This document shows positions 5,551 to 33,665 of a stretch of DNA of 64,000 nt, piece by piece (position 1 is the stretch's first letter; every line of letters starts with the position of its first letter). The translations under genes were made by a program, and so were the position numbers. Source of the DNA: Polynucleobacter sp. UK-Gri1-W3 (GTDB lineage: Bacteria > Pseudomonadota > Gammaproteobacteria > Burkholderiales > Burkholderiaceae); assembly GCF_018881595.1 (NCBI RefSeq), contig NZ_JACVQA010000001.1, positions 309,625 through 373,624 on the forward strand, read 5' to 3'. The notes below the pieces were generated by a model. The model worked only from the letters and a program-made list of their open reading frames with translations. It did no database searches and was not told where the DNA came from.

Positions 5551-5567
5551 TGTCGTTTTAAACGACA
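5551..5567. promoter_or_regulatory. 17-bp palindrome, candidate operator
   Basis: TGTCGTTTTAAACGACA lies between the divergent sorA and DUF3147 genes. A near-identical palindrome occurs at 10865-10881 and a variant at 10910-10926. A shared dimeric regulator is inferred; its identity is unknown. Confidence 0.55.
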
Positions 5568-10864: not shown

Positions 10865-10881
10865 TGTCGTTTAAAACGACA
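10865..10881. promoter_or_regulatory. 17-bp palindrome, second copy
   Basis: TGTCGTTTAAAACGACA differs from the site at 5551-5567 only in the central bases. It lies just after the DUF6671-like gene, not in an obvious promoter, so it could also be a hairpin left by a rearrangement. Confidence 0.5.
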
Positions 10882-11083: not shown

Positions 11084-11159
11084 TGGTGGCCCGGGGCGGA
11101 ATCGAACCACCGACACAAGGATTTTCAATCCTCTGCTCTACCGACTGAGCTACCAGGCC
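11084..11159 (-). tRNA. tRNA-Phe (GAA)
   Basis: A complete 76-nt tRNA on the minus strand beginning GGCCTGGTAGCTCAG and ending GGGCCACCA with encoded CCA. The acceptor stem pairs over 7 bp with one G-U. The anticodon loop TTGAAAA gives anticodon GAA, phenylalanine. The T arm contains GGTTCGATTCC. It is the only intact tRNA in the window and the hub for six partial copies: four 3' ends to its left and two 5' halves to its right. Confidence 0.97.
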
Positions 11160-12756: not shown

Positions 12757-13049
12757 TCACTTCGCTTAAGTGCGTTTATGCGTCAATATCAGCGGTATTT
12801 GTAGAAAATATATGCCGTGTAAAAAACATTGGCGATACGGAAGACAGGCATAGTAAAAATGGTTAAGCGTTGGCAACGTCATACGTTTTGAAATACGTAA
12901 TTACGTTTTGCTACGCTACTTTTTATGTGAAGAAATTTTTAACGACTGTAAAAATATTCTGTGATTTTGTTTAGCAAACTTTGTAACTTACCAAACTCTA
13001 ATCGCCCGCAAAGTATTATTCTATATGGCTCTGCCGTCTTACAGGATGC
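12757..13049. other. Intergenic, no gene seen
   Basis: AT-rich sequence leading up to the displaced tRNA-Phe 5' half. It contains a short CACTT/AAGTG dyad and direct repeats of TACGTTTTG near 12884-12920, and no credible reading frame. Confidence 0.5.
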
Positions 13050-13103
13050 TTTTCAATCCTCTACTCTACCGACTGAGCTACCAGGCCAAGACTGAGAATT
13101 ATA
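13050..13103 (-). repeat. Displaced tRNA-Phe 5' half with promoter, copy D1
   Basis: Fifty-four bases match the intact gene from the anticodon loop through the D arm, 5' end, spacer and -10 box with one mismatch (CTACTC for CTGCTC). The 3' half is absent, so no tRNA can be made. An AGGATGCT element just before it is shared with fragments C1 and C2. It marks the distal end of the 11.2-13.1 kb island. Confidence 0.9.
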
Positions 13104-13216
13104 AATGAAACTGGGAATGGGCTTGCTAAATGTGCCTACTGTGGCCAACTCTGCTGGAAACCTTGTAAATCCTGTGGCAGTGGGGATATTCAATCCTGTG
13201 GGACGGTGGCGACTCA
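13104..13216. other. Duplicated element-end sequence
   Basis: Similar in layout to 11176-11280 beside the intact tRNA: both contain spaced AATCCTG(T) motifs, GGCAGT(T/G) and a final ACGGTG. This suggests that the same element end was duplicated, possibly including integrase arm sites. No gene seen. Confidence 0.5.
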
Positions 13217-13288
13217 TCATTTATATGACTTTTGTAAGGCTTGCTGTACCTTAGCTACCTTTTGCCTCTCCTGCTCTGCTTTAAGGGC
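13217..13288 (-). pseudogene. Family S remnant (copy 2, C-terminal part)
   Basis: Twenty-three codons read ALKAEQERQKVAKVQQALQK then SYK and stop. They match the C-terminal ERxRQKxxKxQQxL block of the proteins at 11295-11471 and 13605-13769. A stop codon immediately precedes the fragment, and the N-terminal PLxPxQARL block is missing, so it is a truncated copy. Confidence 0.7.
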
Positions 13289-13301
13289 TTATGAGCAACC
13301 A

Positions 13302-13586
13302 CTAACCATCAACCCTTCCCTCAAAAGTCTCATTTGATGAATCTAAAAAGACTTCCTCTTCGCCCAAATTATTAGACGTCAAAATATCAAATAGTTCCGC
13401 ATGCAATTCCTCATTGCCAATAAAGCAGTCGATAAACTTCTTTTGGGAGCTTACATCAACATCCTCGCATCGCCCCTCCTCCTGAACGGCCTCAATTTCC
13501 GCCTTTATTCGCCTCCAATTAGAGGCATTCAGATCAATTGCAATTTCGTTGACTGAGGCGATAATTTTAGAGACTATTAATTTCAT
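13302..13586 (-). CDS. Acidic protein of unknown function
   Basis: A 94-residue, strongly acidic protein: an N-terminal segment (KLIVSKIIASVNEIAIDL), then helix-forming WRRIKAEIEAVQEEGR, a FIDCFIGNEELHAELFDIL block and an acidic tail. It contains no known domain that I recognise. It follows two small genes on the same strand (13772-13918 and 13605-13769), with an 18-bp gap, so the three likely form one transcript at the tRNA-proximal end of the large island. Confidence 0.55.
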   Translation of the reverse strand: MKLIVSKIIASVNEIAIDLNASNWRRIKAEIEAVQEEGRCEDVDVSSQKKFIDCFIGNEELHAELFDILTSNNLGEEEVFLDSSNETFEGRVDG

Positions 13587-13604
13587 ATTTTGAGCCCTTA
13601 GAAG

Positions 13605-13769
13605 TCATAGCTCAACTTTACCAAGTTCTTGCTGTCCAGCCTTAATCTTTTGCCTGGCACGCTCAGCTTTTACAGCCTCTTGATCCCGCTTAACACGATC
13701 ATTCATTGATTTAAGCCTGGCTTGCTCTGGACTTAGGGGTTTGATTGGGGCTATTTCATCGAACCTCAT
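13605..13769 (-). CDS. Small basic protein, family S copy 3
   Basis: The 54-residue protein reads MRFDEIAPIKPLSPEQARL, then SMNDRVKRDQEAVKAERARQ and KIKAGQQELG. It is related to copy 1 at 11295-11471 through PLSPEQARL and ERARQKIKAGQQ. It is predicted to be a single charged helix. Its start lies 2 bp after the stop of the 48-residue gene at 13772-13918, with no ribosome site of its own, so translational coupling is likely. Function unknown. Confidence 0.65.
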   Translation of the reverse strand: MRFDEIAPIKPLSPEQARLKSMNDRVKRDQEAVKAERARQKIKAGQQELGKVEL

Positions 13770-13771
13770 AA

Positions 13772-13918
13772 TTAACTAATGAGTAGTGGTTGGTGTGGCA
13801 CGTTATTGGCGCCGAAGATGGCTTTGAAGAGTGCGTAGGCTTGAGCTTGATTCTGTGCGTAGAGAATTGTTTCTACCCATATTCCTGCTGCATTGACTGT
13901 TGCCTTATATCGCCTCAT
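13772..13918 (-). CDS. 48-residue protein of unknown function
   Basis: A short frame reading MRRYKATVNAAGIWVETILY, then AQNQAQAYALFKAIFGANNV. The composition and amphipathic pattern (beta strand, then helix) look like a real small protein; the next gene starts 2 bp after its stop. It has no recognised family. It would be the first gene of a three-gene minus-strand operon ending at 13302. Confidence 0.5.
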   Translation of the reverse strand: MRRYKATVNAAGIWVETILYAQNQAQAYALFKAIFGANNVPHQPLLIS

Positions 13919-13985
13919 ATAGATATTTAGTGGCAAACTAATTTCACGTGTAAATTAAACAAATAACTAATAAAAGGATTAGACA

Positions 13986-14276
13986 ATGGCAACTAAACAA
14001 AGTCTTTACGATAAAGCACTAGATATTATGCAATCCAACGAATCGCTTTATGATCGCTGGGAAAATGCCATCGCAGCCCACATGGCAAAAGAGTGGGCGA
14101 ATGCCTTTGCTGTTGTCGCAAAAATATCGGGGTCAGATAGTCCCACCGTAATGGAGGTTGCAGATATGGGCTCTGATGAAATTCAAGATAACGCAAAGTT
14201 TTTAAGTGACCTACAAGAAGTTTTTAAGACGCTTGCAAAGGGGTGTCAACTTGATAATGAAGGCAATTGGATTTAG
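13986..14276 (+). CDS. Protein of unknown function upstream of hairpin R1
   Basis: The 96-residue protein begins after AAAGGATTAGACA. It has helical segments (LYDKALDIMQSNESLYDRWENAIAAHMAKEWANAF in parts), a VMEVADMGSDEIQDNAKFLSDL middle and a C-terminal LAKGCQLDNEGNWI. No domain is recognised. It is convergent with the gene at 14324-14764, and the perfect hairpin R1 begins 11 bp after its stop, where it could terminate transcription from both sides. Confidence 0.6.
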   Translation: MATKQSLYDKALDIMQSNESLYDRWENAIAAHMAKEWANAFAVVAKISGSDSPTVMEVADMGSDEIQDNAKFLSDLQEVFKTLAKGCQLDNEGNWI

Positions 14277-14286
14277 CGCACAAGGG

Positions 14287-14319
14287 CTAGCAAGCGTCTA
14301 GTTGCTAGACGCTTGCTAG
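14287..14319. repeat. Cassette-boundary hairpin R1 (+ orientation)
   Basis: Perfect 15-bp arms (CTAGCAAGCGTCTAG and its complement) around a TTG loop. The core GCGTCTAGTTGCTAGACGC is at 14294-14312. It lies between two convergent genes. First of eight related copies. Confidence 0.9.
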
Positions 14320-14323
14320 TAAA

Positions 14324-14764
14324 TCAACGTTTAAACCCACTCCTTAAGCTAGCACTTGCGGTTTCTATTTGAGCATCGAGCTCGCCAGCCTCTACCGCCG
14401 ACTTGATGGACTCTAGCGCCTTTACCAGCTCTGGACCACTTGCTACTTCAACGCTAGGTTTGCCCTTTGCCAACTCTATTGTCCAACTTCCATATTTCAC
14501 AGATACACAGACTTTGCCCTGCTCTGATTGGAACCACCAAGGCTTTAATCGCTTTGGCATTTCTACCTGCTTACGCAACCCCGTCTCTTTGTCTTTAATT
14601 GTTTTGAACTTTGTTACAACAAAGGGCGTGCCATCCATCTGACTCTTAGCTAGCTGGATCTGCTCCCATAGCTTGCTAGAAAGCTTATTTCTGCGAATCA
14701 CGATTGCAGGCATATGGGTTGGTTTTTTAACTGCTACTAACTTTAAGTTACTTAATGCGCTCAT
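14324..14764 (-). CDS. DUF6641-like element-borne protein
   Basis: A 146-residue basic protein: N-terminal SALSNLKLVAVKKP and RRNKLSSKLWEQIQLAKSQM, a central PKRLKPWWFQSEQGKVCVSVKYGSWTIELAKGK block, and C-terminal SVEVASGPELV, AVEAGELDAQIETASA. The pattern fits what I recall of DUF6641, found on betaproteobacterial mobile elements; that assignment is from memory. A truncated copy of its C-terminus lies at 11472-11624. A function has not been established; basic charge and the WW core suggest nucleic-acid contact. It ends 5 bp from hairpin R1. Confidence 0.6.
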   Translation of the reverse strand: MSALSNLKLVAVKKPTHMPAIVIRRNKLSSKLWEQIQLAKSQMDGTPFVVTKFKTIKDKETGLRKQVEMPKRLKPWWFQSEQGKVCVSVKYGSWTIELAKGKPSVEVASGPELVKALESIKSAVEAGELDAQIETASASLRSGFKR

Positions 14765-15149
14765 TGTTTTCTCCTATGTAGTTAATGGGCATAAGCAGTT
14801 TGTTTTCGATCTGTTTATTTGGTCGACCTATTTTTGTCAATCCACTTCTTTTGCCGCATTTTGGACAAGAAATTAATGGTTTTTCTTTAAGAGAGATAAA
14901 TATTTTTGCGAGTTGCTTGGTTACAAAGTAGATGTCGCAAGAAGAAAAAGAAGTCGCAAAGTTGAGTTTGAGTAGTTGCTAGTAAGTTACTCGTAGTAGC
15001 AAATGAGTAACTCTGACCAAGCAACACAACTTCGTAACTTCTCTTTTGAGATCTGCGACTTTTACTGCAACTGATCTCTTCTGATCTCTCTTGTAACCAA
15101 CAAAGCAACTAGCAACGAGAACTCAATTTAGAACACAAGGAGAATAAAA
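14765..15149. other. 385-bp intergenic region dense in dyads
   Basis: No gene. Contains AGTTACTC/GAGTAACT and TTGCTTGGT/ACCAAGCAA inverted repeats nested within about 130 bp (14913-15030), two GTCGCAA repeats, repeated TGATCTCT, and AGTTGCTAG/CTAGCAAC segments resembling the R1 core. It lies between divergent genes and could be a regulatory region, a replication or transfer origin, or recombinase sites. Confidence 0.5.
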
Positions 15150-15608
15150 ATGAGAGAAATAGCAATCAGAGGCTTTATCAACGAGAAGTACAACACGCCA
15201 TTTGGCAAAGGATTATTCAGACGAGCCATCTATAACGGCTCAGTGGAACTTCATAATCCAAACCAAAAGTATCTAGTTGACTTTTATGAATATGAACAAT
15301 TTCAACATACTGCTAAAACAGATGATCAAATAAGAACACTTAAGAAATTAGACGCCTGCGGCATAGGCAGTACGCCAGATTTAGTGATGTCGTGGATTGT
15401 GCATTACGAACCGTTAACCAAATCAAAGGAACTTGTTGATGGCTATTGCATCTACCTACAAACAACAGGCGAGGTTCATATTGAAATTGACGATGTTCTA
15501 AATGGAACAAAAGATGAGTGGGACTTAAAAGCACATCATTGCAAAGCTGTAGGTGCAAATAAGCCCGTATTTGTTGCGACAAATGTAGATTTAAGCGCCA
15601 AGCAGTAA
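15150..15608 (+). CDS. Protein of unknown function in cassette R1-R2
   Basis: The 152-residue soluble protein follows a good site (AAGGAG). Parts: MREIAIRGFINEKYNTPFGKG, VDFYEYEQFQH, a central TPDLVMSWIVHYEPLTKSKELVDGYCIYLQT and a C-terminal acid-rich GEVHIEIDDVLNGTKDEWDLKAHHC. No motif identifies an activity. It shares a hairpin-bounded interval with the DUF6641-like gene transcribed away from it. Its stop is followed by a large terminator-like structure that encloses R2. Confidence 0.55.
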   Translation: MREIAIRGFINEKYNTPFGKGLFRRAIYNGSVELHNPNQKYLVDFYEYEQFQHTAKTDDQIRTLKKLDACGIGSTPDLVMSWIVHYEPLTKSKELVDGYCIYLQTTGEVHIEIDDVLNGTKDEWDLKAHHCKAVGANKPVFVATNVDLSAKQ

Positions 15609-15631
15609 TTTGCTAAGAACACCTCAAAAAT

Positions 15632-15708
15632 GCCCTACAAGCAACGATCTTCAAGCATCACAGCGTCTAGTTGCTGGACGCCAATCAAACAGCGTGTAGG
15701 GCTTTTTT
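15632..15708 (+). terminator. Terminator arms enclosing hairpin R2
   Basis: GCCCTACA at 15632-15639 pairs with TGTAGGGC at 15695-15702, followed by TTTTTT. The 55-nt loop contains R2. It looks like an intrinsic terminator whose loop carries the boundary repeat. Confidence 0.65.
15663..15681. repeat. Cassette-boundary hairpin R2 (+ orientation)
   Basis: GCGTCTAGTTGCTGGACGC, one change from the R1 core. It is 55 bp after the stop of the preceding gene and sits in the loop of the terminator-like structure at 15632-15708. Confidence 0.88.
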
Positions 15709-15922
15709 GACCCCAAAACCTAATTTGTCGTCTAAATCCCACGAATTAAGCGCAATTAGAGCTAAATACTTAAGAGCAAATTTGGTTAAGAAAATATACA
15801 TTTTCTTATGCGGCGCGTAAGCCATTGATTCTTGGAAGAATTATTTTGGCAAATTTCGGTCGACCATTTGGCAATAAGAAAACACACTAATAGTGCTTTT
15901 TTATTTATGAAAGGTTTTACAA
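15709..15922. other. Upstream region of the 188-aa recombinase gene
   Basis: No gene. Contains a short CACTAATAGTG dyad followed by TTTTTT at 15885-15903, just before the ribosome site GAAAGG; it might act as an attenuator. GGTCGACC near 15859 is a palindrome also found near 14819. Confidence 0.4.
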
Positions 15923-16489
15923 ATGGCTCAAGCAAAAACTTTAACCCAAGCAGAACTAGATCAAGTGCTGCGTTATGTATCTACCAAAAAATATCCCGAA
16001 CGCGATAGGGCATTACTAATGACAAGCTTTCTTGCAGGGCTTCGTGTTGCAGAGATCGCATCCTTAACAATGGGTGATGTTTTAAATACAGATGGCACAG
16101 TCAAGGCGGAAGTTCGTTTATCTGCCGAACAAACCAAAGGTAAATATCCGAGGACAGTTTTCTTATCCACTAAATTACGTGCTGAACTGGAGGAATATTT
16201 AAAAACTCGTCACGCAAAATATCCTGACATTCCACTCTTCCACACCAATACACGCCTAAGATTTACTGCTAATTCACTATGTCAGTGGTTCTATCACACC
16301 TATCGCAATGCGGGCATTAGTGGCGCAAGCAGCCATAGCGGAAGAAGAAACTTTCTTACCTCGCTTGCCTCAAAGGGCGTAGGTGTTCGTGTACTTGCAG
16401 CGCTAGCAGGACACCGCAATATTGCTGTAACGATGAAATACATTGACGCTTCAGACGATATGAAACGCAATGCGGTGGAATTAATTTAA
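15923..16489 (+). CDS. Stand-alone tyrosine recombinase catalytic domain
   Basis: At 188 residues it is the catalytic domain of a XerC/D-like phage-integrase-family protein without the N-terminal core-binding domain. The full active set is visible: R41 (GLRVAEI), a Lys near 72-74 (TKGK), H138 and R141 (HSGRR), H164 (AGHRN) and nucleophile Y173 (MKYID). It cuts and rejoins DNA through a 3'-phosphotyrosine link. Minimal recombinases of this size are known from integrative elements and phase-variation systems. It converges with, and overlaps by 4 bp, a helix-turn-helix gene that could supply DNA-binding. It is encoded inside the hairpin-delimited array, so it is the prime candidate to act on those repeats. 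Confidence 0.88.
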   Translation: MAQAKTLTQAELDQVLRYVSTKKYPERDRALLMTSFLAGLRVAEIASLTMGDVLNTDGTVKAEVRLSAEQTKGKYPRTVFLSTKLRAELEEYLKTRHAKYPDIPLFHTNTRLRFTANSLCQWFYHTYRNAGISGASSHSGRRNFLTSLASKGVGVRVLAALAGHRNIAVTMKYIDASDDMKRNAVELI

Positions 16490-16944
16490 TCAATCCAACC
16501 GAGGCGCTGCCATTTAGCGAATCTCGCCTCGTCTTCAATATTAGGCTTCTCGCAAGAAAAGCCTAATTCCTTTAATAAACGCATTGCCTGGGTTCTGCTA
16601 AGTTTGCAATGAAAAGGCCATATTTCCAATAGCTCAACAACCATTGCTAGCGACCATTTATCTTTATCAAAACCATTGCGTAGTCCGCCTTTGCGCAACA
16701 TTCTTTGTAACTTGTAATTTTCTTCCTTCTCTAAAGAACTAGGCCTACCTAGCGGAGTAGAGCGCCAACCCATCTTATTAACTTCATCCACTTTTGCCCA
16801 AGCAAATACGCTTTGCCTAGACACCTCCAAACGCCTGGCAACCTCTGATTGCGAAATTCCACGGCGCAGCATTCGTACGCCTTGCATGCGGCGCCCTTCC
16901 ATGGCTTTGATTTTTCTCTTTGGCTTTTTAGAAATTTCTATCAT
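16486..16944 (-). CDS. Helix-turn-helix protein (IS630/homeodomain-like)
   Basis: A 152-residue basic protein with a first helix-turn-helix at about 15-52 (GVRMLRRGISQSEVARRLEVSRQSVFAWAK), a GRPSSLEKEEN linker, and a second winged helix-turn-helix at about 95-135 (WSLAMVVELLEIWPFHCKLSRTQAMRLLKELG). This paired arrangement is that of the N-terminal DNA-binding half of IS630-type transposases; no DDE catalytic domain follows. It is therefore either a domesticated DNA-binding protein or a regulator. Its stop overlaps that of the 188-aa recombinase, suggesting a functional pair. Confidence 0.75.
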   Translation of the reverse strand: MIEISKKPKRKIKAMEGRRMQGVRMLRRGISQSEVARRLEVSRQSVFAWAKVDEVNKMGWRSTPLGRPSSLEKEENYKLQRMLRKGGLRNGFDKDKWSLAMVVELLEIWPFHCKLSRTQAMRLLKELGFSCEKPNIEDEARFAKWQRLGWID

Positions 16945-17207
16945 TTTTCATTGAAAAATAGAGCTTGGCACAAAACAATTGATCAATTTTTTGTCAGTTA
17001 TTAATGTAACACATAAAAGACATGATAGACAGCAAAGTCATTATTTATATGGCTTGAATTTTCGTATTTACTGTCAATAAAAATCATTCTCTAACCAACA
17101 TGTCACAAAAAAATCGCAAAAATCTATAGTTCATACATCAACTCAGCAAGCAGTACGGCACCTTCGCCACAACCCGCTGAGCTGGTTCCTAAATGGAGGT
17201 ATTACAA

Positions 17208-18023
17208 ATGGCTAATACAGCTAATGCAGTAAAAGCAGCATTTCAACCAACAGCAGAAAACCTCGCCTTTTCAGGTGGACTTGTAACGCAACTAGATGGT
17301 TTAGTTGTAAAGCGTAAGCAGTGGGAAGCTACTGATTACAAAAAAGCTAATGAGGGTTTATATAGCTTATTAGCAAGCTGTCTAGACGTCTTCAACAGCA
17401 AGTTTGTTAATGCTAGCGATGACGACAAGAAAACCTTGCGCGGCGAATTAAAAAATCGCCTGATAGCAGATGGGGTTCGGGTACAACGCAATACAACCAC
17501 CTTAACCATGTTCGTACGCTTTGTTTTTGGTTCTGATCGCAAACGTGCACACGGCTACACCTACGTGCTTAAAGCAGCAATTTCATATGACGTTACAGCA
17601 GCTAGCCTGCCAAGCTGGATTGTTGAGCAAGGCGGCATCGAAGAAGTTCGCAAGCGCATGATTGTTTCGGAGAAAGCTTTAGCAAACCGAACAGCTCTTG
17701 AAAGCGCAAAAGCCCAGGTTGTAGCCAATGTTGAACAAGCTTCTGTAACACCACTAGCGAAATTCAGTATGTCTGGTGTAAGCGGGGAATATGCCTTACT
17801 CCTTGCAAAGCCTTCACCTGATGGGACTGTCTCTATCGTCGGCGCAATATCTGACATCAACGAAGCTTTCTATAACGCATGTCTGCTAAAGATGGCTCGC
17901 GTTAAAGCAGCAGATAACGCTGAATCGCTAGCTCTTAGCAAAGAGGGCACAGATTTGTTAGCCGGTAGCAGTTCTATCGCCGCCAACGATTCTGTAACTC
18001 AAAAAGAACTGCTTGCAGCCTAA
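17208..18023 (+). CDS. Protein of unknown function paired with AAA+ ATPase
   Basis: The start at 17208 (MANTANAVKAAF) has GGAGGT eight bases upstream; an earlier ATG lies within that site. The 271-residue soluble protein is rich in Ala, with helices at 25-90 (LVVKRKQWEATDYKKANEGLYSLLASC), a basic strand-rich middle (TTTLTMFVRFVFGSDRKRAHGYTYVLKAAI) and a helical C-terminal third. It has no recognised domain. It is followed 68 bp later by an AAA+ ATPase gene on the same strand, and the two probably form a functional unit within cassette R2-R3. Confidence 0.6.
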   Translation: MANTANAVKAAFQPTAENLAFSGGLVTQLDGLVVKRKQWEATDYKKANEGLYSLLASCLDVFNSKFVNASDDDKKTLRGELKNRLIADGVRVQRNTTTLTMFVRFVFGSDRKRAHGYTYVLKAAISYDVTAASLPSWIVEQGGIEEVRKRMIVSEKALANRTALESAKAQVVANVEQASVTPLAKFSMSGVSGEYALLLAKPSPDGTVSIVGAISDINEAFYNACLLKMARVKAADNAESLALSKEGTDLLAGSSSIAANDSVTQKELLAA

Positions 18024-18091
18024 GCAGTAATTCAAGGGGGCGGGACATTCCCGTCACCCTTTTTAACTTCACTTACACATAGGAGGACATA

Positions 18092-18784
18092 GTGAAAACA
18101 TCAGTCAAATATGCGCCAAAGATTTTGGGCGATGTGATTTACCCTAATTCAGCCGTCAGAACACGCATACAAGCATATATGTCAGGTCAATTAGAAGGCA
18201 ACATCTTGTTATGGGGACCGAACGGTACTGGCAAAACTACCGTAGCCGATTTGCTCCCTTCATATATTAGTGGCGACGCTGCTTTTATTGAGACTCAAAG
18301 TTTTGACGAGATTCTCAAAAAAGATGATTTGCGCGGCTATATAGCAAATTCATGCAGCATTGCTAGCTTTTCAAACTCTAAGTACTTCATGGTCTTTCAT
18401 GAGTTTGATAACGCAAAAGCCAATGTAAGCAAGTTCTGGACTGTTATCGAAGAGTACGCAGATCAGTTAATGCTCATCATCACCAGCAATGATCCGATGA
18501 ACATTCACAAAAGTCTGCGTTCGCGTTGCGATGAAATACATTTCCCAGCTCTAACTGCTCGTCAAGTATTGCCTCGTGCGCTAAAGATTCTTGCGGCAGA
18601 GGGTGTCGATGTCCCTGAAAAACAAGTTCTGCATTACTTAACGCAGATCGAGCACTTTGGGGACTTGCGCAAGTATTTCGCTAAGTTAGACGAGATCATC
18701 TATCTCTTTAAAACAGGTGGGACATTTCCACCAGCGCCCAATGTCATTCTTAACAGCAACAAAATCAAGCTGTCTCTTGTTTAA
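18092..18784 (+). CDS. AAA+ ATPase, clamp-loader/RuvB-like
   Basis: A 230-residue protein starting at GTG after AGGAGG. Walker A is GPNGTGKTT (residues 42-50); a Walker B-like strand is YFMVFHEFDNA; sensor 1 is in LMLIITSNDP (Asn); an arginine-finger-like element is SLRSRCDEIHF. This is the compact AAA+ fold of replication factor C small subunits, RuvB and related remodelers, without extra domains. It probably forms a ring acting on DNA or on the upstream partner protein. It ends 5 bp before perfect hairpin R3. The combination with the 271-residue protein is not one I can name. Confidence 0.82.
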   Translation: MKTSVKYAPKILGDVIYPNSAVRTRIQAYMSGQLEGNILLWGPNGTGKTTVADLLPSYISGDAAFIETQSFDEILKKDDLRGYIANSCSIASFSNSKYFMVFHEFDNAKANVSKFWTVIEEYADQLMLIITSNDPMNIHKSLRSRCDEIHFPALTARQVLPRALKILAAEGVDVPEKQVLHYLTQIEHFGDLRKYFAKLDEIIYLFKTGGTFPPAPNVILNSNKIKLSLV

Positions 18785-18788
18785 CTAA

Positions 18789-18821
18789 TTATCAAGCGTC
18801 TAGTGACTAGACGCTTGATAA
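18789..18821. repeat. Cassette-boundary hairpin R3 (+ orientation)
   Basis: Perfect 15-bp arms (TTATCAAGCGTCTAG and its complement) around a TGA loop. The core GCGTCTAGTGACTAGACGC is at 18796-18814. Begins 4 bp after the AAA+ gene stop. Confidence 0.9.
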
Positions 18822-18862
18822 ACCAATCTCATACTCAATTAATTTAATAAAGGACTTAAAAA

Positions 18863-19177
18863 ATGAATAATCTCTCAAACAACACTATTCCTCACACGTC
18901 ATCTAAAGCTCAAGTAAGCAAATTACAGCGAGTTCAAGATGTCTTTGCAATTGAAGTTAAAAATGCCATGTACCGTGGGGCCAAATTTAGCGGCGTATTA
19001 GAACTTGTAAACGGCACAGACAGTATTTGCAAACACAAAGGTACATATCGCGCTAACGCTAAATTAGCTTGGTTCGGACAAGAACTTAAAAAGCGCAATC
19101 CATTTATCGATCTTGCTAACGCAGAAGTCACCCTATTACCTTGCTATACAGGCGATGTCATTGCCTCTTTAGGTTAA
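18863..19177 (+). CDS. Protein of unknown function after R3
   Basis: A 104-residue protein preceded by AAAGGACTT. The middle reads FAIEVKNAMYRGAKFSGVLELVNGTDSICKHKGTYRANAKLAWFGQELKKRN in parts, basic and mixed alpha/beta, with a hydrophobic C-terminus (LLPCYTGDVIASLG). No family is recognised. It is the first of three closely spaced plus-strand genes (9-bp gap to the next, then a 4-bp overlap), so an operon is likely. Confidence 0.55.
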   Translation: MNNLSNNTIPHTSSKAQVSKLQRVQDVFAIEVKNAMYRGAKFSGVLELVNGTDSICKHKGTYRANAKLAWFGQELKKRNPFIDLANAEVTLLPCYTGDVIASLG

Positions 19178-19186
19178 GGAGGACTT

Positions 19187-19729
19187 ATGTATCCAAAAGC
19201 ATACTTATTTCACGATGCAGACTTGGAAGGGCTAGATCATTTAATTTCAAGTCCAATTACCTTAACTTTTGGTGTTAATCAGCTTTGTAGGAATAAAAAG
19301 TCGCATATAGATTTAGCCTGCGCACTAAATCTATATAACGCTTGTAACAAGCCGATTTACCCAAATTATGTCACCTGCATCTACGACTCTAAGCCGCAAG
19401 AAATTTTGGCAACCATTTTAAAATTTAATATCTCGGAGTACTGCTATATCAAGTCAGATAAGCACTTTACTCTAGCGAAATCTCTAGTCAACATTAACAG
19501 AAAGCTTGAAGGCACAATGCAAAATATCAGCGGGCTTGAAAGCAATATGCGAACTTGTTACAAGATCCTAGAAACCTTTAATCTTCAAATGGCATCGCCT
19601 TTGGATTATCAGGAGATTGAAAGCATGTCTCATGTGCTATCGGTTAGAAAAGTTGCTCGATTAAAACTAAATGATTTAATTCGCAAAGAATTTATTGATA
19701 ATATTTGCCAATATATGGAGGATGTATGA
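19187..19729 (+). CDS. Protein of unknown function
   Basis: A 180-residue protein with AGGAGGACTT before its start. It has a Cys-containing N-terminal half (CRNKKSHIDLACALNLYNACNKPIYPNYVTCIYDSK in parts) and a helical C-terminal half (SVLSVRKVARLKLNDLIRKEFIDNICQYM in part). No motif identifies an activity. Its stop overlaps the next start in an ATGA junction, so the two products are probably made together. Confidence 0.55.
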   Translation: MYPKAYLFHDADLEGLDHLISSPITLTFGVNQLCRNKKSHIDLACALNLYNACNKPIYPNYVTCIYDSKPQEILATILKFNISEYCYIKSDKHFTLAKSLVNINRKLEGTMQNISGLESNMRTCYKILETFNLQMASPLDYQEIESMSHVLSVRKVARLKLNDLIRKEFIDNICQYMEDV

Positions 19730-20052
19730 ATAACTACTCTGATGTTGAGCTCGAAACGGCTCACAAGCATAGCCTTGCTAATCGCAAGACCATTCAAAAA
19801 AGCGAGCAATGTAGTTGCTTCTATTGCTGTTGTGTGTTTCCAGCAACTATGGTTGAGCAATGGTTAAGCGAGGCTAATGGACAAGGTGATACGGGATGGT
19901 GCCCAAGATGTGGGGTGGATAGTCTAATTGGTGATGCATCTGGCATTCCACTGACGCCATCGTTTTTAGCAGCTATGAATGGGAAGTATTTCGATGCAGA
20001 TTGTGCAATTGAAGCAGATGAACTCAAGCCAACTTCGCTGCATTCATCATAG
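19726..20052 (+). CDS. Zinc-ribbon cytoplasmic protein
   Basis: The start at 19726 overlaps the preceding stop and has GGAGG upstream. The 108-residue protein matches a widespread small family that I recognise by pattern: AHKHSLANRKTIQKSEQCSCFYC, FPATMVEQW, GWCPRCGVDSLIGDASGIPLT, then FLAAMN. The two Cys pairs (CFYC and CPRC) should bind zinc. Its function is unknown. The last 29 bases overlap the convergent integrase gene. Confidence 0.72.
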   Translation: MNNYSDVELETAHKHSLANRKTIQKSEQCSCFYCCCVFPATMVEQWLSEANGQGDTGWCPRCGVDSLIGDASGIPLTPSFLAAMNGKYFDADCAIEADELKPTSLHSS

Positions 20053-21238
20053 GAGTTAGCTTCGAATAATGTCGCTCAATCATGCCAACACTAGTGCCCA
20101 TTTGCCTAGCGAGAGTGTGGATATCAACCCCTCTCGCTAAGGCGAATGTGGCATATGTATGACGCAGGCTATATAAGGTTCTATTCTGCCCACCTCCATC
20201 GACTCTCATATTGCTACGAACCATTAAGTTGCGAAAAATGTTTTCCATATTGCTGATTTGCTCACCTGTTGGCAATCTAAATATCACAGCATCAACCTTA
20301 GCCTCAATCACTGCATTGAGTCCCGAGTAAGGCAGCTTCTGCCACTTCATTACTCGTTCTAACACCTTCACCACAGCAGTTCTTGCTATCAAATATCTGG
20401 GTCCCGTCTTACCTGAGACCCATATCCTTAAGTATTTCTTTTCCCCAATCCAATGCCATTGCAAATGCTTCCACTTCAGTGGCAAAGCCTCTGTTCCATG
20501 ACGAACGCCTGTATTGACCAAAAACTCTATGTAATATACGCACAGCGTTCTCATTAATGCCGTTCTATCTGTATAGCTACTCTTTTGCCACGTCTCTGTA
20601 TAGCTGAGCAACTCTTTAATTTCTTCCGCTGAAAAAGCAGGGCGGGGTTGGCTCTTTTTACCTTTGCTATCCAATAATGGGACCGCTTGATTAAGTCCAA
20701 TATAGCCACGATCACGGGCTAGATTAATCACACGAATATAAGCACTGGCGTGATTACGCTTGGTGCTCGCCATGGGAGTCTTGCCCATCTCGGCGATTCG
20801 CCAAGCCTCAAAATCTCCCAGCAATTCATTTGTAATTTTGCTGATCTCATATTGCCCAAAAAAGGGAACGAGATATTTGTTAATGGCGAAGGCATAGTCA
20901 CGATAAGTTCGTTTGCCTGTTTTGTTATCGGTAGCTTGTGCCATATTGGCAATCTCATCTAAAGCTACTTGCCTGAAGGTCTTGGTTGTAACAGCAAGGC
21001 CAGCCCCAATCTTAACTTTGACGGTTTCATATATTGAGATAGCTTGGGTTTGAGCAATATCAAGATCTTCTGTAGCAGTAGAAGCGGCATGCCATTGCCC
21101 ATTGGGCAACTTAAAGCGGCATTGCCATTGCCGACTTTTAGGTCGCTTGAATAGAGTTAGCTCACCCCGTAACAATTTAATTCTTTTTGGTGAGCCTAGG
21201 TTTGTATTTGCAGGAAATAGATATTGAAAGTTTTGCAA
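20024..21238 (-). CDS. Phage-type tyrosine integrase
   Basis: A 404-residue integrase with an N-terminal arm-binding region (about 20-60), a core-binding domain (about 95-200) and a catalytic domain (about 205-404). Catalytic residues: Arg in NTGVRHGTEALPL, the YSLRHTYATFAL block (Arg and His) and Tyr in IERHYSK. The usual first box His is Tyr and the second is Thr (MGTSVG), as in several genomic-island integrases. The start used is TTG; the true start is uncertain. It probably drove integration at tRNA-Phe, yet it lies 7 kb from the nearest displaced tRNA half and 4 bp from repeat R4. Confidence 0.88.
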   Translation of the reverse strand: MQNFQYLFPANTNLGSPKRIKLLRGELTLFKRPKSRQWQCRFKLPNGQWHAASTATEDLDIAQTQAISIYETVKVKIGAGLAVTTKTFRQVALDEIANMAQATDNKTGKRTYRDYAFAINKYLVPFFGQYEISKITNELLGDFEAWRIAEMGKTPMASTKRNHASAYIRVINLARDRGYIGLNQAVPLLDSKGKKSQPRPAFSAEEIKELLSYTETWQKSSYTDRTALMRTLCVYYIEFLVNTGVRHGTEALPLKWKHLQWHWIGEKKYLRIWVSGKTGPRYLIARTAVVKVLERVMKWQKLPYSGLNAVIEAKVDAVIFRLPTGEQISNMENIFRNLMVRSNMRVDGGGQNRTLYSLRHTYATFALARGVDIHTLARQMGTSVGMIERHYSKLTPMMNAAKLA

Positions 21239-21243
21239 GTTGA

Positions 21244-21262
21244 GCGTCTAGTTAAGGGACGC
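21244..21262. repeat. Cassette-boundary repeat R4 (+ orientation)
   Basis: GCGTCTAGTTAAGGGACGC, upstream of the integrase start and about 100 bp before the MazG-like gene. Only the outer 5-bp arms pair. Last copy in the plus orientation. Confidence 0.82.
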
Positions 21263-21345
21263 TAGTTAGCTTAATTTCAGATTAGGGTTTGGACGACCTT
21301 TAAGACCCTTGAAAATGCTTCTTTGAACTGTAGTAGCATTGTCTT

Positions 21346-21681
21346 ATGTCTGACATATCTGATTTAACTAAAAAACTAATCGAATTTAGAGATGCCCGGG
21401 ATTGGAAACAGTTTCATAATCCCAAGGATCTTGCTGTTGCGCTATCTATTGAATCAGGCGAACTTCTAGAGGCGTTTCTTTGGAAATCATCCGAACAGGC
21501 ATCGCAAGAAAAAATCAAAGAGGAGTTAGCTGATGTCCTTGCTTACGCCCTTTTACTTGCCAACGAATGTGGACTAGATGTTGCTGAAATAGTAACTGCG
21601 AAGATTGAGGCAAATAATCTTAAATATCCAGCCGATAAAGTCAAAGGTAGCGCCAAGAAGTACAACGAGTCTAACTTCTAG
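21346..21681 (+). CDS. MazG-like nucleotide pyrophosphohydrolase
   Basis: A 111-residue all-helical protein of the RS21-C6/dCTPase type: RDARDWKQFHNPKDLAVALSIESGELLEAFLW, then EELADVLAYALLLANECGLD. The ESGELLE (ExxE) and EELADV (ExxD) motifs bind magnesium. It hydrolyses nucleoside triphosphates to monophosphate and pyrophosphate, cleaning or depleting the dNTP pool. It is convergent with, and overlaps by 11 bp, the operon of two nuclease-helicase proteins. Pairing of MazG-like enzymes with DUF2075 helicases is seen elsewhere, so a joint antiviral role is a reasonable inference. Confidence 0.88.
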   Translation: MSDISDLTKKLIEFRDARDWKQFHNPKDLAVALSIESGELLEAFLWKSSEQASQEKIKEELADVLAYALLLANECGLDVAEIVTAKIEANNLKYPADKVKGSAKKYNESNF

Positions 21682-23545
21682 CTCTCAGTCTCTCTTCAAA
21701 GTAGGCCTGGGTTTCTGGGTCGGTGCAGAAGATATAGCAACCTTTCATTCCTCGGGTCATTAAAGTTCTGTAAGTATTTCTGATGATGCCGTCGACTTTC
21801 TTATTGGCCGCCTCTGGATTTATTTTTAACAGCTTCTTATATCCGCTGATCGATTTATCGGTCTTAGCCCGAGCTTTTGGGTTTGTTATGACATTACCGT
21901 CGCGAACTATTAAATCATCCCCAATGATCACGCCCACGTAGTCAACCTCAAGTCCTTGGCATGTGTGAATGCAACCAACCTCTGATACTGAGTCTGGAGC
22001 TTGAATCCAGAGCGAGCCATCTGTATCTAAATTCCACTGCATTCCAAAATCATATTCAGGAAGACTAATATCAAAAGCAGACTTATCGCCTCGACTAATC
22101 CAATTCCAGCAGTAGCCAGCAACCATCCTGGCTTTATTGTTAATTTTGTTTTTCTCAAAGATTAATTCCTTGAGCTCATTGGGTGTTGATAGAACCTGAA
22201 AGTCATATTCAAGTTCATCTAGCGTCTTGTTGGCCGTTTCTCTAATTGCCAAAACATCATCTAGCCAAGCCAAATAACCGTCAGAGCCATTGCATCTAAA
22301 TTGAGACTCCAGCGCCAAATGATGAACCTTGGCACCTTCAAGTTTTGCCCATCTCTCAATTTCTTCTTTGCTGCCAATATCACTAAAGGTTACTTTCTGG
22401 TCTTCATCTATAAAAAAGATTGAGAGCTTGCTGGAGTGAATAATTTCCTTAACCTGGTTCTCGCCAATATTTTTAAACATTCCAGATTTTTCATTGAGGC
22501 GATGCGCCTCATCCACAATCAACACATCAAATGCATTTTTCTCTAGCGAATGAAATGATCCTGACCCAGAAAATAAATTAGATATGGCCGACTTTCTCAT
22601 TGAGCCAGTCAACTTAGCCTCATATACCGCCCGAGGTGCCGCATTCTTAGTGATGTATTGAGCCACCAAACGTAACTGCTGAATGATATTAACCAATAGG
22701 TTTACGGCTACTACTGACTTTCCGGTTCCGGGGCCACCTTGAACAATCAATACATTCTTGTTTGTTGGAGAAGATTCTTTTGCTAATTTTATAGCGGTTT
22801 CATATACCAGCTTCTGCTCATCTAGCATGATGAATTCAGGGTTGCCAGCAATCATTTTTGCTAAGCTATCGGCAAGACTCTTCGAGGGCTTAATCTTGCC
22901 GTTTTCAATCCGGAACATTAAATCGGACTTATCCCCATACTTTACAAAGCCCTTGATGAATGCCTTGAGCCTTTCTTTCTCTGACTTGCCTTTGAGAAAT
23001 ACTGGGGCTTTTTCAAGGTAAGGCTGATAAAAGCTATTTGTTATAACGCTATCTTCAATGTAGTTATGAAGATAAGCACAAGGAGAGAGGTGAATATTGT
23101 CGGTGTAGACAGTTTCATTGAGCTGGTTTAATAGCTCGCTATAAGACCATGCCTGATATGAGGGGTGACTTGTTTCAGCTACCCCATGCTGAAACCTTGT
23201 TTTAACAATGGCATCTTTGTCCGTTAGCTCTGCCGCCTCCCATTGCTTTAACTCAATAATAACTACTTGATCTTTTTTTTCGTGATTCTGCCCGGTCAAT
23301 ATGAAATCAATTCTTTTGGATGTCTGTGGGATTGAATATTCAATGCTTACCCCCGCATCATTAGGTATTTCAACGTCATCTAAAACTGCGCCCATATACC
23401 TCATGGATTCTTGCCAAGACCTAAGCTCATTCTTAGCTACACGATGCCCAGTCTTTGCTTGATATGTTGCCTCAATGATTTCGTGAATTTCATTTGAGAG
23501 CAAATGCTTTATGAAGCGTTCTTTGTTGGATTGATAGATGATCAT
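21671..23545 (-). CDS. Nuclease-helicase, DUF2075 family (second of pair)
   Basis: The start at 23545 (MIIYQSNKERF) lies 1 bp after the stop of the upstream paralogue. The 624-residue protein has an N-terminal PD-(D/E)xK-like nuclease region (RIDFILTG ... VVIIELKQWE, about 75-105) and a superfamily 1-like helicase core from about 255: Walker A QGGPGTGKS, Walker B VLIVDEAHRL, a FFIDEDQ motif III-like step, CIHTCQGLEVDYVGVII and TYRTLMTRGMKGCYIF near the end. It should couple ATP-driven movement to DNA or RNA cleavage. It forms a two-gene operon with its paralogue, convergent with MazG-like. Confidence 0.85.
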   Translation of the reverse strand: MIIYQSNKERFIKHLLSNEIHEIIEATYQAKTGHRVAKNELRSWQESMRYMGAVLDDVEIPNDAGVSIEYSIPQTSKRIDFILTGQNHEKKDQVVIIELKQWEAAELTDKDAIVKTRFQHGVAETSHPSYQAWSYSELLNQLNETVYTDNIHLSPCAYLHNYIEDSVITNSFYQPYLEKAPVFLKGKSEKERLKAFIKGFVKYGDKSDLMFRIENGKIKPSKSLADSLAKMIAGNPEFIMLDEQKLVYETAIKLAKESSPTNKNVLIVQGGPGTGKSVVAVNLLVNIIQQLRLVAQYITKNAAPRAVYEAKLTGSMRKSAISNLFSGSGSFHSLEKNAFDVLIVDEAHRLNEKSGMFKNIGENQVKEIIHSSKLSIFFIDEDQKVTFSDIGSKEEIERWAKLEGAKVHHLALESQFRCNGSDGYLAWLDDVLAIRETANKTLDELEYDFQVLSTPNELKELIFEKNKINNKARMVAGYCWNWISRGDKSAFDISLPEYDFGMQWNLDTDGSLWIQAPDSVSEVGCIHTCQGLEVDYVGVIIGDDLIVRDGNVITNPKARAKTDKSISGYKKLLKINPEAANKKVDGIIRNTYRTLMTRGMKGCYIFCTDPETQAYFEERLRARS

Positions 23546-23546
23546 C

Positions 23547-25532
23547 TTATATTTCACCCATCCCACAACTCTTTAAGAAATCATAAGTTTGGTCGTAGTA
23601 AGATTTTTGTCTTGTTGGATCCAAGTCATCTCCTTCCGGAACAAAGATCACCATCCCTTGTCTGCCACGAGTAAGCAATACACGATAAGAGTTTGTAATG
23701 TACTTTTGTTTTTCCAGATCATGAACCGACTGCCACTTAGACCCAGAGAAGTTATAGGTTGCCCACCTCCCGTCTTCGATTCTAAAGTTGGCGTCCCAAC
23801 AGACACCAACCCAATCTATCTCCAGGCCTTGAATATCAAATTCAGTGGCAACATCTTCAAGATAATGGGAAGAGCGTATGTCAGTCTTGCCCTTAAGAAA
23901 CCAGTGAATTGGATCTATTTCGCCCTTAACAAAAATTCCAGACGGCTTTAAACGTATAGCATTTGATGAGGCAACTAAACCTATGCGCTCACTTCCTCTA
24001 GCCCAGCCCCTCAGAGCACTTCTAGCCACCTCCAAATTACGAGTCAAATAAATTGGGTAGCGAGTTAAATGTCCCTTTATCTCCCTTGCCTTGATTGAGT
24101 CACCCGAAATGACGGCGCTTACAAATGCAGATAATTTCTCAGCCCTAAATGATCTTAATGAGACGGACAAATTTAAGTCGGGTTCAAGATGCAATTTAAG
24201 GGGGCCTTGATCTTCGAGCCACTCCCTACTTAGCGCGTAATCAGATTTGAAAATTTCATTAGAAAAATGGATTTCCCAATCTTTATAGCTTTCTTTTAAT
24301 GCGGAAATCCACTCGATGATTCCGCCTTCACCAGTATTGATCTCTTGACCACCGCCAATTAAACAAACCACCACACACCAATCCTTATGGCGATTCATCA
24401 CGGACAATAAAAAATCAGGCTCAGACATGGAAAAGTTATCCTGCCCACGCTTACGCTTCATAAAAGAGGATGCCTGCTCCTCATTCCAAGCTCTCTGGGC
24501 TTCATCAAATATCACAACCTTTTCAATGGGCGGCTCATTAGAGGCTAGATTGTCGTCACGAAAATGATGAATATTTTGAATAAATGCAGATGCCTTTTGC
24601 TCCGCAGGCTTTCGTTTGATTCTTTCGTCTTTTGGCAAAGAATCATTCTCAGCCAATTGATCTTGTACTAATGCCTCTCGCAATACGGCAACTAATGGGC
24701 CATTGCCGGATAAAAAAACGGCATGCTCGTTTTCTAAATAGTGCATACGCTCTATAGCAATATTCAATCCAGCCAAACTTTTACCCGCGCCCGGTGCGCC
24801 CGTAATTAAACAAATTACTTTCTTATTGTTTGCCTTTGCATCATCAATCACCCTTGAAACTTGGGCGCAAGTCTTTGTAAGATTTATTGCGCCAGCATCA
24901 GACCGTGATATTTCTTCAACCTTATGTCCTTTATATAAGGCCTGAGCAGCCTCAACTATCGTTGGAGTTGGGTGATAGGCTGAACTTATCCATGACTCAG
25001 CATCTAGAACTGACTTTGGCAATGAATTTGAAACAAACGACAAAATACTCAATAAGTTCTCTGAGTTAGCCAATATTGGAGTTGCAATCCCATCGGCCCC
25101 AATCTCTAGCTTAGGGCTTTTATTAGGGGCATCCGTAGCAATCAGTATCGGAACAATGTTTAGATTATGACTGGCTTTATGAAAGTTTTTTAAGTCCAGA
25201 GCATAGTCATAGGCTTGATCGATTGAAGTAGAGTCATATGACTTAGCGCCTACTTTGTATTCCATTACCAAGATTGCGCCATTTAATATCAGAATGGCGT
25301 CTACGCGCCTACCAATCCTGGGTATTTCAAACTCAAGCAGCAGGGTTACACCTGGGAAGCCTGCCAATACCTGCTTTAAGTCTTTAATCTGCCTAAGCCA
25401 GGCATTAATCTGCTGCTGCTCTAATTGCCTAAACTTATGTTGATTGATTAATTGCCCCAGAACCTCGTCTTCTGAAGTTTGTATAAATTGACAAGCTTCT
25501 GCCTTATATGCAAAGCGATTAGATAAATTCAT
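23547..25532 (-). CDS. Nuclease-helicase, DUF2075 family (first of pair)
   Basis: A 661-residue protein with the same layout as its downstream neighbour but low identity to it. The PD-(D/E)xK-like region reads RRVDAILILNGAILVMEYKVG (about 74-95, Asp and the ExK pair present; split here). The helicase core has Walker A TGAPGAGKS near 245, Walker B VVIFDEAQRAW, and C-terminal LEIDWVGVCW and SYRVLLTRGRQGMVIF. Two tandem diverged paralogues suggest a heteromeric complex. They occupy the R4-R5 interval with MazG-like and a gp32-like protein. A phage-defence role is inference. Confidence 0.85.
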   Translation of the reverse strand: MNLSNRFAYKAEACQFIQTSEDEVLGQLINQHKFRQLEQQQINAWLRQIKDLKQVLAGFPGVTLLLEFEIPRIGRRVDAILILNGAILVMEYKVGAKSYDSTSIDQAYDYALDLKNFHKASHNLNIVPILIATDAPNKSPKLEIGADGIATPILANSENLLSILSFVSNSLPKSVLDAESWISSAYHPTPTIVEAAQALYKGHKVEEISRSDAGAINLTKTCAQVSRVIDDAKANNKKVICLITGAPGAGKSLAGLNIAIERMHYLENEHAVFLSGNGPLVAVLREALVQDQLAENDSLPKDERIKRKPAEQKASAFIQNIHHFRDDNLASNEPPIEKVVIFDEAQRAWNEEQASSFMKRKRGQDNFSMSEPDFLLSVMNRHKDWCVVVCLIGGGQEINTGEGGIIEWISALKESYKDWEIHFSNEIFKSDYALSREWLEDQGPLKLHLEPDLNLSVSLRSFRAEKLSAFVSAVISGDSIKAREIKGHLTRYPIYLTRNLEVARSALRGWARGSERIGLVASSNAIRLKPSGIFVKGEIDPIHWFLKGKTDIRSSHYLEDVATEFDIQGLEIDWVGVCWDANFRIEDGRWATYNFSGSKWQSVHDLEKQKYITNSYRVLLTRGRQGMVIFVPEGDDLDPTRQKSYYDQTYDFLKSCGMGEI

Positions 25533-25660
25533 TTCTATTATTTTTAATGATTAGTTCATTTTATGCACATTTGCCCTTGCAATGAGAATTTCTTGGCTGG
25601 TTGTCCTATTAAGGCTTTGGGCTTACTGTTGCAGCGATAGTTTTACTGTCAGTTTTTTTG

Positions 25661-26449: not shown

Positions 26450-26450
26450 T

Positions 26451-26469
26451 TTGTCGTGCTTCCCGACAA
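26451..26469 (+). terminator. Hairpin after gp32-like gene
   Basis: TTGTCG-TGCTTCC-CGACAA, a 6-bp stem starting 2 bp after the stop. There is no T tract, so termination is uncertain. Confidence 0.4.
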
Positions 26470-26507
26470 GGGAGCTGAACAGAGGATAAGAAATCTTCTT
26501 TCGGTAG

Positions 26508-26526
26508 GGGTCTCGTAACTAGACGC
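26508..26526. repeat. Cassette-boundary repeat R5 (- orientation)
   Basis: GGGTCTCGTAACTAGACGC; on the minus strand GCGTCTAGTTACGAGACCC. The outer arm has one mismatch. The TAG inside it is the stop codon of the minus-strand cupin gene. First copy in the reversed orientation. Confidence 0.78.
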
Positions 26527-26833: not shown

Positions 26834-26942
26834 TTATCAATCTTTATTGTAGTTACTTTGCTGCTTTGCAAAAATGATCCAGGTCACACTAAACCATCGA
26901 AACCCCTTTGATTCTTAAGCGCCTCGTAAATAGACTCCTGGC

Positions 26943-27227: not shown

Positions 27228-27339
27228 ATGGGCTCCCATTTGTTAATTTCTCATACTTAGAAAATAATTACAGAATTCATTATCGTTTAAGTACGTCAGG
27301 GTAGAATAATTTCAACACTCATCATTAATTGGACGCACC

Positions 27340-28058: not shown

Positions 28059-28069
28059 GGGGTATGACC

Positions 28070-33658: not shown

Positions 33659-33665
33659 AAATTTA

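Follow-up and report, generated by a model that had tools for sequence, protein, structure and literature searches.

Palindromic repeats at module borders of a tRNA-Phe island in Polynucleobacter: a possible non-integron cassette array with a large integrase as candidate enzyme

A gene for a small tyrosine recombinase (F4) lies among a series of 19-bp palindromes in the 64,000-nt stretch of Polynucleobacter sp. UK-Gri1-W3 analysed here (the window), and the question raised by this locus is what the palindromes do and which protein acts on them. A sequence-only reading had proposed that F4 and a helix-turn-helix protein encoded beside it recognise the repeats, and that a larger integrase (F5) serves integration at tRNA-Phe. 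The explanation favoured here, tentatively, is a cassette array unlike that of integrons, built on a composite element, R-M-X, in which modules are joined at X and F5 rather than F4 is the candidate enzyme.

The palindrome GCGTC-N9-GACGC (R) occurs exactly seven times in the window, compared with a mean of 0.01 in 100 dinucleotide shuffles, so the repeats first described from the sequence are far in excess of expectation. When up to two mismatches are allowed there are 23 matches in the window against 12.4 expected: beyond the exact copies, the one at 26508 (one mismatch) suits the series, the one at 26919 (two mismatches) is doubtful, and the remaining 14, with two mismatches each, are no more than chance would give. 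All seven exact copies, and the one at 26508, lie within the island (Table 1). Over the organism's whole genome, a more stringent 19-mer pattern that allowed up to two mismatches returned the same eight places and one weak place elsewhere. Their orientation, assigned by inner asymmetry, is forward from 14294 to 21244 and reverse from 26508 to 33669, four copies each. R2 sits in a longer inverted repeat at 15632-15709 (GCCCTACA...TGTAGGGC) followed by a T run, as is the case in several relatives; R2 as a conserved recombinase site upstream of F4 was rejected, since it is not kept in all F4 relatives. Outside the R set, two GTCGTTTTAAACGAC palindromes lie near gene ends at 5552-5566 and 10866-10880 and are the sole two exact copies in the genome.

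Table 1. Coordinates of repeats, core genes and tRNA features in the window
Feature	Position	Strand	Evidence
Intact tRNA-Phe, left edge of island region	11084-11159	-	
tRNA-Phe 5'-half copy, 92% over 63 nt	13041-13103	-	
R1 palindrome, inside 14-bp perfect stem (14288-14318), 3' of F2	14294-14312	+	exact match
F2, DUF6641 core protein	14324-14764	-	PF20346, 3e-13
F3, 152-aa protein, family not found	15150-15608	+	AlphaFold2 model pLDDT 88
R2 palindrome, between F3 and F4	15663-15681	+	exact match
F4, 188-aa tyrosine recombinase, catalytic domain only, full RKHRHY set	15923-16489	+	ORF, PF00589, NCBIfam, cluster alignment
152-aa helix-turn-helix protein, N-terminal part of IS630-type transposase, catalytic part missing	16486-16944	-	ORF, Pfam, NF033545
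F8N, 276-aa core protein, no family found	17193-18023	+	Pfam, PHROGs
Clamp-loader-like AAA+ core protein	18092-18784	+	phrog_168, 6.8e-30
R3 palindrome, inside 14-bp perfect stem (18790-18820), 3' of clamp-loader gene	18796-18814	+	exact match
F5, 404-aa integrase, tRNA-Phe clade; candidate cassette-junction enzyme	20024-21238	-	
R4 palindrome, directly upstream of F5 ORF start	21244-21262	+	exact match
R5 palindrome, one mismatch; ORF 26519-26833 (-) terminates inside R5	26508-26526	-	mismatch scan
Doubtful degenerate copy, two arm mismatches	26919-26937	-	mismatch scan
R7-M-X composite: R 28525-28543, M ~28554-28569, X 28581-28598	28525-28598	-	
R8-M-X composite: R 30248-30266, M ~30277-30292, X 30304-30321; comparison with G048 shows the join to the next module at X	30248-30321	-	
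R9 palindrome, island right end, 164 bp before tRNA-Phe fragment; flank M-like, without X	33669-33687	-	exact match
tRNA-Phe 5'-half copy, 84% over 63 nt, island right end	33852-33914	-	

Islands from 151 sampled genomes of the genus share a core in the order F2, F3, F4, F8 or F8N with a clamp-loader-like protein, and then F5, and relatives of F2, F3 and F4 with related palindromes are also present in Methylophilaceae and Zwartia. F4 belongs to the conserved core of tRNA-anchored cargo islands found in Polynucleobacter and in other betaproteobacteria of fresh water. F3 matched no family in Pfam or PHROGs and no fold in PDB or BFVD at E≤0.001. F5 splits into three clades associated with different tRNAs: Phe in six islands (G000, G087, G079, G076, G056, G121), Arg, with tRNA-Pro beside tRNA-Arg, in four (G016, G011, H071, H007), and Lys in three (H020, H040, H146). 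The clade of F5 tracks the adjacent tRNA in these 13 islands, where both were seen, which supports the earlier assignment of the larger integrase to tRNA-Phe; tRNA fragments at island ends were found for Phe only, the Arg and Lys tRNAs being just nearby. F5 from G032 sits outside the Phe, Arg and Lys clades and has a tRNA-Arg near it. In six stretches (G000, G087, G079, G076, G056, G032) an R4-type palindrome lies 4-5 bp from the F5 ORF start and is followed by cargo that is mostly palindrome-separated. Among F5-cluster genes as a whole, a palindrome is present within 120 bp upstream in 19 of 31 by the strict scan, and in 23 of 31 when 19-mer scans for G000, G076, G032 and G149b are counted. 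Homology of the core with relatives stops up to ~46 bp past the R4 centre.

The island in the window also encodes two large proteins side by side (21671-25532) in which PF09848, the Schlafen group 3 helicase domain, is matched at 4e-104 and 3.5e-79 and which are possibly a defence module, and, between R7 and R8, an Mrr-type restriction endonuclease (28652-29719; PF04471, 7e-23). A relative of single-strand DNA binding protein is encoded at 25658-26449 (phrog_1192, 9e-46), and this gene and the clamp-loader-like gene, both T4-like replisome pieces, raise a possible link to a phage-satellite lifestyle.

F4 possesses the R-K-H-R-H-Y set of tyrosine recombinases in its PF00589 domain, and R41, K72, H138, R141, H164 and Y173 are invariant in 36 of 36 cluster members in fetched islands (the window's own copy included, members above 245 aa left out). 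The Pfam match covers residues 6-178 (E 4e-25) and, because it begins at residue 6 of 188, F4 lacks a core-binding domain, in line with the original description of a 188-aa recombinase with a complete catalytic set and no such domain. Simple tyrosine recombinases are defined, in the section cited, by core-binding plus catalytic domains (PMC8138268), and F4, without a core-binding domain before the catalytic one, is not a canonical simple (Xer-like) enzyme. Compared by sequence with solved structures, F4 comes nearest to Xer-type enzymes (4a8e, 1.7e-12); the NCBIfam models that it matches include those of Xer and FimB/FimE-type enzymes, each scoring far short of its cutoff. The FimB/FimE-type invertase model PRK09870 aligns residues 5-175 with profile positions 11-178 of 200 (1.8e-9) and scores 37.5 bits against a cutoff of 221, placing F4 outside that family; the integron integrase model TIGR02249 scores 32.9 bits for F4 and 15.9 bits for F5 against a cutoff of 265, and neither is an IntI by this measure.

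The gene convergent with F4, overlapping it by 4 bp, encodes a 152-aa protein that matches HTH_23 (6.5e-7) and, weakly and under cutoff, HTH_33 (0.0039) in Pfam, which agrees with the helix-turn-helix gene without a catalytic domain that was first noted there. The IS630 transposase model NF033545 matches residues 18-137 (5.6e-13) over profile positions 1-118 of 299, and because the match stops at position 118, near the ORF end, the catalytic (DDE) part is absent and only the N-terminal helix-turn-helix region is that of an IS630 transposase. The slot is variable, being occupied by other genes in relatives, and the gene is absent from the other tRNA-Phe islands seen. Judged by its sequence, the protein is a passenger transposase remnant, and the proposal that it partners F4 on the repeats was abandoned.

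To relate the palindromes to the core genes, co-occurrence was scored across the 151 genomes, with sites taken as distinct 19-mer matches with up to two mismatches, F4 at ≥66% identity and Phe-type F5 at ≥76% identity. F4 is present in 11 of 12 genomes with at least three sites and in 26 of 139 others; F3 in 11 of 12 and 29 of 139; and Phe-type F5 in 6 of 12 and 1 of 139. The first of these counts favours F4 as the enzyme, and the six multi-site genomes without Phe-type F5 count against F5. The sequence-only reading held that repeats common without the recombinase, or the recombinase common without repeats, would speak against recognition by F4. A repeat match of any kind is found in 39 genomes, 20 of them without such an F4, and 18 of the 37 F4 carriers have no repeat, so both patterns exist in part; however, some of the single matches are chance, given that a reversed-pattern control matches 22 of 151 genomes and that 7 of the 20 F4-lacking repeat genomes have two-mismatch matches only.

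The type of palindrome, or flavour, follows the island. Within 12 kb of F5, excluding sites up to 120 bp from the F5 start and leaving out 12 unclassed sites, the share of GCGTC among classed sites is 20 of 22 in islands of the Phe type, 7 of 22 in those of the Arg type and 1 of 18 in those of the Lys type (chi-square p 2e-6, an optimistic value since related islands are treated as independent). Many islands with F4 at 70-73% identity have, at module ends and upstream of F5, other GTC-N9-GAC palindromes, TGTCGGTTTAACCGACA and GTGTCTCGAAACACGACAC among them. The view that each integrase clade has its own palindrome was rejected, because GTCGG-class sites predominate away from F5 in both Arg (11 of 22) and Lys (11 of 18), which are not separated, and Phe alone is distinct. 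The Phe type (G000, G087, G079, G076, G056) contains two F4 alleles that are 70-72% alike and equally far from the F4 of other types, together with F2, F3 and F5 that are 82-100% alike. Since one flavour spans two F4 alleles, it is the island (F3 together with F5), not the F4 allele, that flavour follows. F3 identity is 85% or more across GCGTC islands (G000, G087, G129a, G079, G076, G056, G016, G011), and as island type is common to F3 and F5, flavour points to F3 as much as to F5; G016 and G011, with Phe-like F3 and Arg-like F5, have mixed flavours. Methylophilaceae stretches with GCGTC palindromes contain no F5 relative above 36% identity. F3 as sole determinant of the palindromes was also rejected, given that M153a-c are among the palindrome-richest loci and no F3 was found there on the fetched stretches.

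The repeats were also predicted to be borders of exchangeable modules, and homology ends, synteny breaks and recent joins all agree with this. A ~290 bp module containing a small cysteine-rich ORF, termed CWC, lies between two R sites in G076, G087 (twice), G146 (twice) and G159. In 11 of 13 pairs between genomes, its homology runs out at both R sites or within them, and in the other two it carries on into shared neighbours. Four of the six copies have the CWC stop codon within R; of the other two, one from G087 reads through R and one from G146 is frameshifted. In G079 the native stop of the F10 ORF is gone and the ORF terminates inside R; the G087, G076 and G129b copies retain the native end. 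Across all islands, a GTC-N9-GAC palindrome is found no more than 40 bp from 106 of 862 synteny-break clusters, where uniform positions give 16.5 (sd 3.7); among near-intergenic breaks the count is 92 of 599, where matched intergenic positions give 42.0 (sd 6.2). These figures are optimistic, as end clusters of related islands are counted separately. The enrichment over the matched control is about two-fold, and most breaks therefore lie elsewhere.

At cargo junctions R is one part of a composite. In 27 selected copies from Polynucleobacter arrays that were aligned, R is followed by M, a TGTTC-N6-GAACA dyad, and then by X, ATCCTCTATCTATCGAGG. The X pattern with up to two mismatches occurs in 24 of 151 genomes, compared with 3 for a reversed control. 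The fetched stretches contain 41 X rows (two places, fetched twice, make up four of them): 26 with R 30-90 bp away and 15 without R. Measured between centres, R and X are 54-56 bp apart in 23 of the 26 rows (22 of 24 distinct places) and 68-71 bp apart in three, although this spacing is not independent evidence because the R-M-X copies share descent. R1-R3 stand at core-gene ends without X. No X match is present beside R4 in Phe islands, so the role of R4 as a platform site is suggested by its position alone.

Two recent joins locate the junction at X, ~45 bp from R. G000 and G048 have 3.6 kb in common at 97% starting from X, and G040 and G079 at least 2.9 kb at 98% starting from X, ending with the stretch; neither pair has continuous similarity before X, and just one partner of each has R-M in front of X. 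There is also a third join, an older one, that of the CWC module in G079, and it is at a variant X. When the partner lacks R, gene-side homology stops at -10 to -23 from the R centre, the outer edge of R, in 20 of 24 ends from five R sites, with three of the remaining ends at -45 and one at +4. On the X side, 5 of 16 homology ends, from five R sites and two partner places, fall at +41 to +49, whereas the other 11 lie further out, at +60 to +103, and count against a join at X.

X resembles tRNA-Phe. A 30-nt X query scores 22 against tRNA-Phe, a value reached by 28 of 5000 shuffles, and six other tRNAs score 12-18; for a 17-nt query the figure is 5 of 5000, both shorter queries having been picked after the breaks were seen. 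The whole 82-nt element is not significant against tRNA-Phe (230 of 5000 shuffles). Of the X copies without R, six of 15 lie 180, 180, 187, 337, 337 and 639 bp from a tRNA-Phe 5' half, and nine have no tRNA-Phe copy within 700 bp.

Taken together, these observations present R as an island-type-specific site at module ends and, at cargo junctions of tRNA-Phe islands, as one part of R-M-X. Cargo modules would be joined at X, ~45 bp from R, in the arrangement F5-R4-...-[X-module-R-M]-[X-module-R-M]-...-tRNA fragment; the joining enzyme would be the large integrase F5, tied to the tRNA-Phe target that X resembles; and R would act as an accessory, arm-like site. The composite, its spacing, where the breaks fall and the dependence on island type are observed; that joining is site-specific, that F5 performs it and that R is accessory are all points that we infer. 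Because flavour fits F3 as well as it fits F5, the argument for F5 is built on the tRNA link, the likeness of X to tRNA-Phe and the palindromes upstream of F5. A role for F4 and a role for R as gene-end hairpins are both serious rivals to this explanation.

The next most probable explanation, possible if doubtful, is that the palindromes are gene-end hairpins or protein-binding signals, serving 3' punctuation or regulation, and that modules are shuffled by homologous or illegitimate recombination at shared ends. In T4-type phages, stem-loop cassettes (PeSLs), for which such shuffling has been proposed, have small hairpins repeated at the module borders of a hypervariable region; the repeats described here are likewise small hairpins at module borders, but the array site adds a constant second motif, X, at which joins are made, and the arrays lie in a tRNA-anchored bacterial island with its own integrase. 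Consistent with hairpins, GCGTC sites are convergent in 45 cases, tandem in 54, divergent in 12 and inside ORFs in 7, compared with background gaps of 129, 375 and 169 respectively, and 56 of 99 lie within 60 bp of a gene 3' end (related copies counted). Past the core, the stem continues for a mean of 1.9 pairs at the 77 distinct GCGTC sites and for 0.41 at the 17 control palindromes, several palindromes provide the stop codon of the neighbouring ORF, the palindrome 3' of a shared F24 module varies by island type, and the inverted repeat around R2 precedes its T run. The extended stems and the preference for gene 3' ends fit a hairpin or a dyad-binding protein equally with an accessory recombination site. 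A listing of intrinsic terminators over 13000-32900 contained none of the eight R copies there (26919 included), and R as an intrinsic terminator is not supported, with the proviso that the longer inverted repeat of R2 falls outside the loop limit of the scan. The constant R-X spacing suits a recombination site, and homology at R cannot yield the recent joins because these are at X, with a partner that has no R-M.

Less probable, and unlikely, is that F4 itself recognises the palindromes and exchanges cassettes there, as FimB/FimE do at short inverted repeats, with F5 confined to tRNA integration. FimB/FimE invert a promoter segment between short inverted repeats, and F4 is similar to such invertases in its length (~190-200 aa), in having a catalytic domain only and in its NCBIfam match along nearly the full length; it differs in a score far under the family cutoff and in its neighbours. 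Apart from the full catalytic set, the PRK09870 match and the F4 clade in multi-site genomes, F4 relatives accompany GCGTC palindromes in Methylophilaceae and Zwartia, a palindrome begins 5-8 bp 3' of the F4 stop in M151, M152, M153a-c and M154, and M153a-c are without F2 or F3 on the fetched stretches. Against F4, the GCGTC flavour is shared by the alleles of G000/G087 and of G079/G076/G056, and F4 proteins that are 96-97% alike occur with different palindromes next to F5 (GCGTC class in H012; GTGTC class in H013, H020 and H146), although these sites are F5-linked. The recent joins, moreover, are 45 bp away from R. In the wider F4 family, GTC-type palindromes are at background density at 40 loci of distant relatives with 49-62% identity (0.078 per kb against 0.074 in controls), and one lies within 150 bp 3' in 2 of 40, compared with 6 of 284 other genes, so that palindromes were rejected as a general companion of the family. 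Viral contigs contained no exact 19-mer and a single F4 relative, at 26% identity. Of the first proposal that the recombinase recognises the repeats, the association in multi-site genomes thus stands, whereas the flavour tracks island type and the distant family shows no enrichment.

A more far-reaching reading, rather unlikely, is a capture system unrelated to integrons in tRNA-anchored islands of freshwater betaproteobacteria, in which F5 and a platform at R4 would take up cassettes at R-M-X with a tRNA-mimicking core and island-type palindromes, and F4 with F3 would form a second dedicated unit acting on the palindromes. Recognition of the palindromes by another core protein (F2, F3 or F8N), with the recombinases irrelevant to them, is improbable: F3 is nearly co-extensive with F4 (35 of 37 F4-clade genomes), its identity tracks the GCGTC flavour as well as that of F5 does, and at least two palindromes are present at 16 of 32 F3-positive loci against 10 of 44 (Fisher p 0.016; the M151 row is misclassified as F3-negative, its F3 having been missed by the profile and found by clustering), but F3 has neither family nor fold match and is missing from the palindrome-rich M153a-c stretches.

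The preferred explanation, a cassette array with F5 as candidate enzyme, resembles integrons in that a recombinase gene stands beside a site (R4) and is followed by a row of small one- or two-gene modules, every one delimited by a structured gene-end site, with stop codons within some sites. Unlike integrons, F4 and F5 score far below the IntI model, the arrays are in tRNA islands, and X resembles a tRNA. Integron attC sites fold as one long imperfect hairpin, whereas R-M-X, in consensus and single folds, forms short separate dyads and small hairpins; none of the 11 consensus pairs is changed on both sides, and hence the aligned set gives no covariation support. Tycheposons and the flexible islands of Methylophilaceae are similar, being cargo islands anchored at tRNAs that carry tyrosine recombinases and occur in freshwater and marine bacteria; in the part cited, none of the Methylophilaceae insertions are bona fide integrons and an integrase most often borders them (PMC10872708). 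The words palindrome, hairpin and attC do not occur in the main text of that paper. Among open-licence papers, searches found none on Polynucleobacter genomic islands with tRNA-Phe, which is no proof of absence, no such sites in the titles or abstract openings of Polynucleobacter papers on integrons, gene cassettes, islands or integrases, and no title matching non-integron cassette or attachment-site arrays.

Should the arrays prove to be site-specific, defence, toxin-antitoxin and metabolic modules would be collected by abundant freshwater bacteria in an integron-like manner, the core of the recombination site would mimic a tRNA, and searches based on integron integrases or attC would miss such arrays. 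With R-M-X and a fixed join point, which enzyme acts becomes directly testable.

Additional F3-, F4- and F5-type genes are present in the organism's own genome at C8 ~311-333 kb and C1 ~112-117 kb, and the F4 and F5 copies on C1 each contain one internal TAG stop. In the Methylophilaceae L115, L116 and L120, three to four different GTC-N9-GAC palindromes lie within ~140 bp directly 3' of F4 relatives, and one of the three has a two-gene module between such palindrome clusters that is 95% identical between two genomes.
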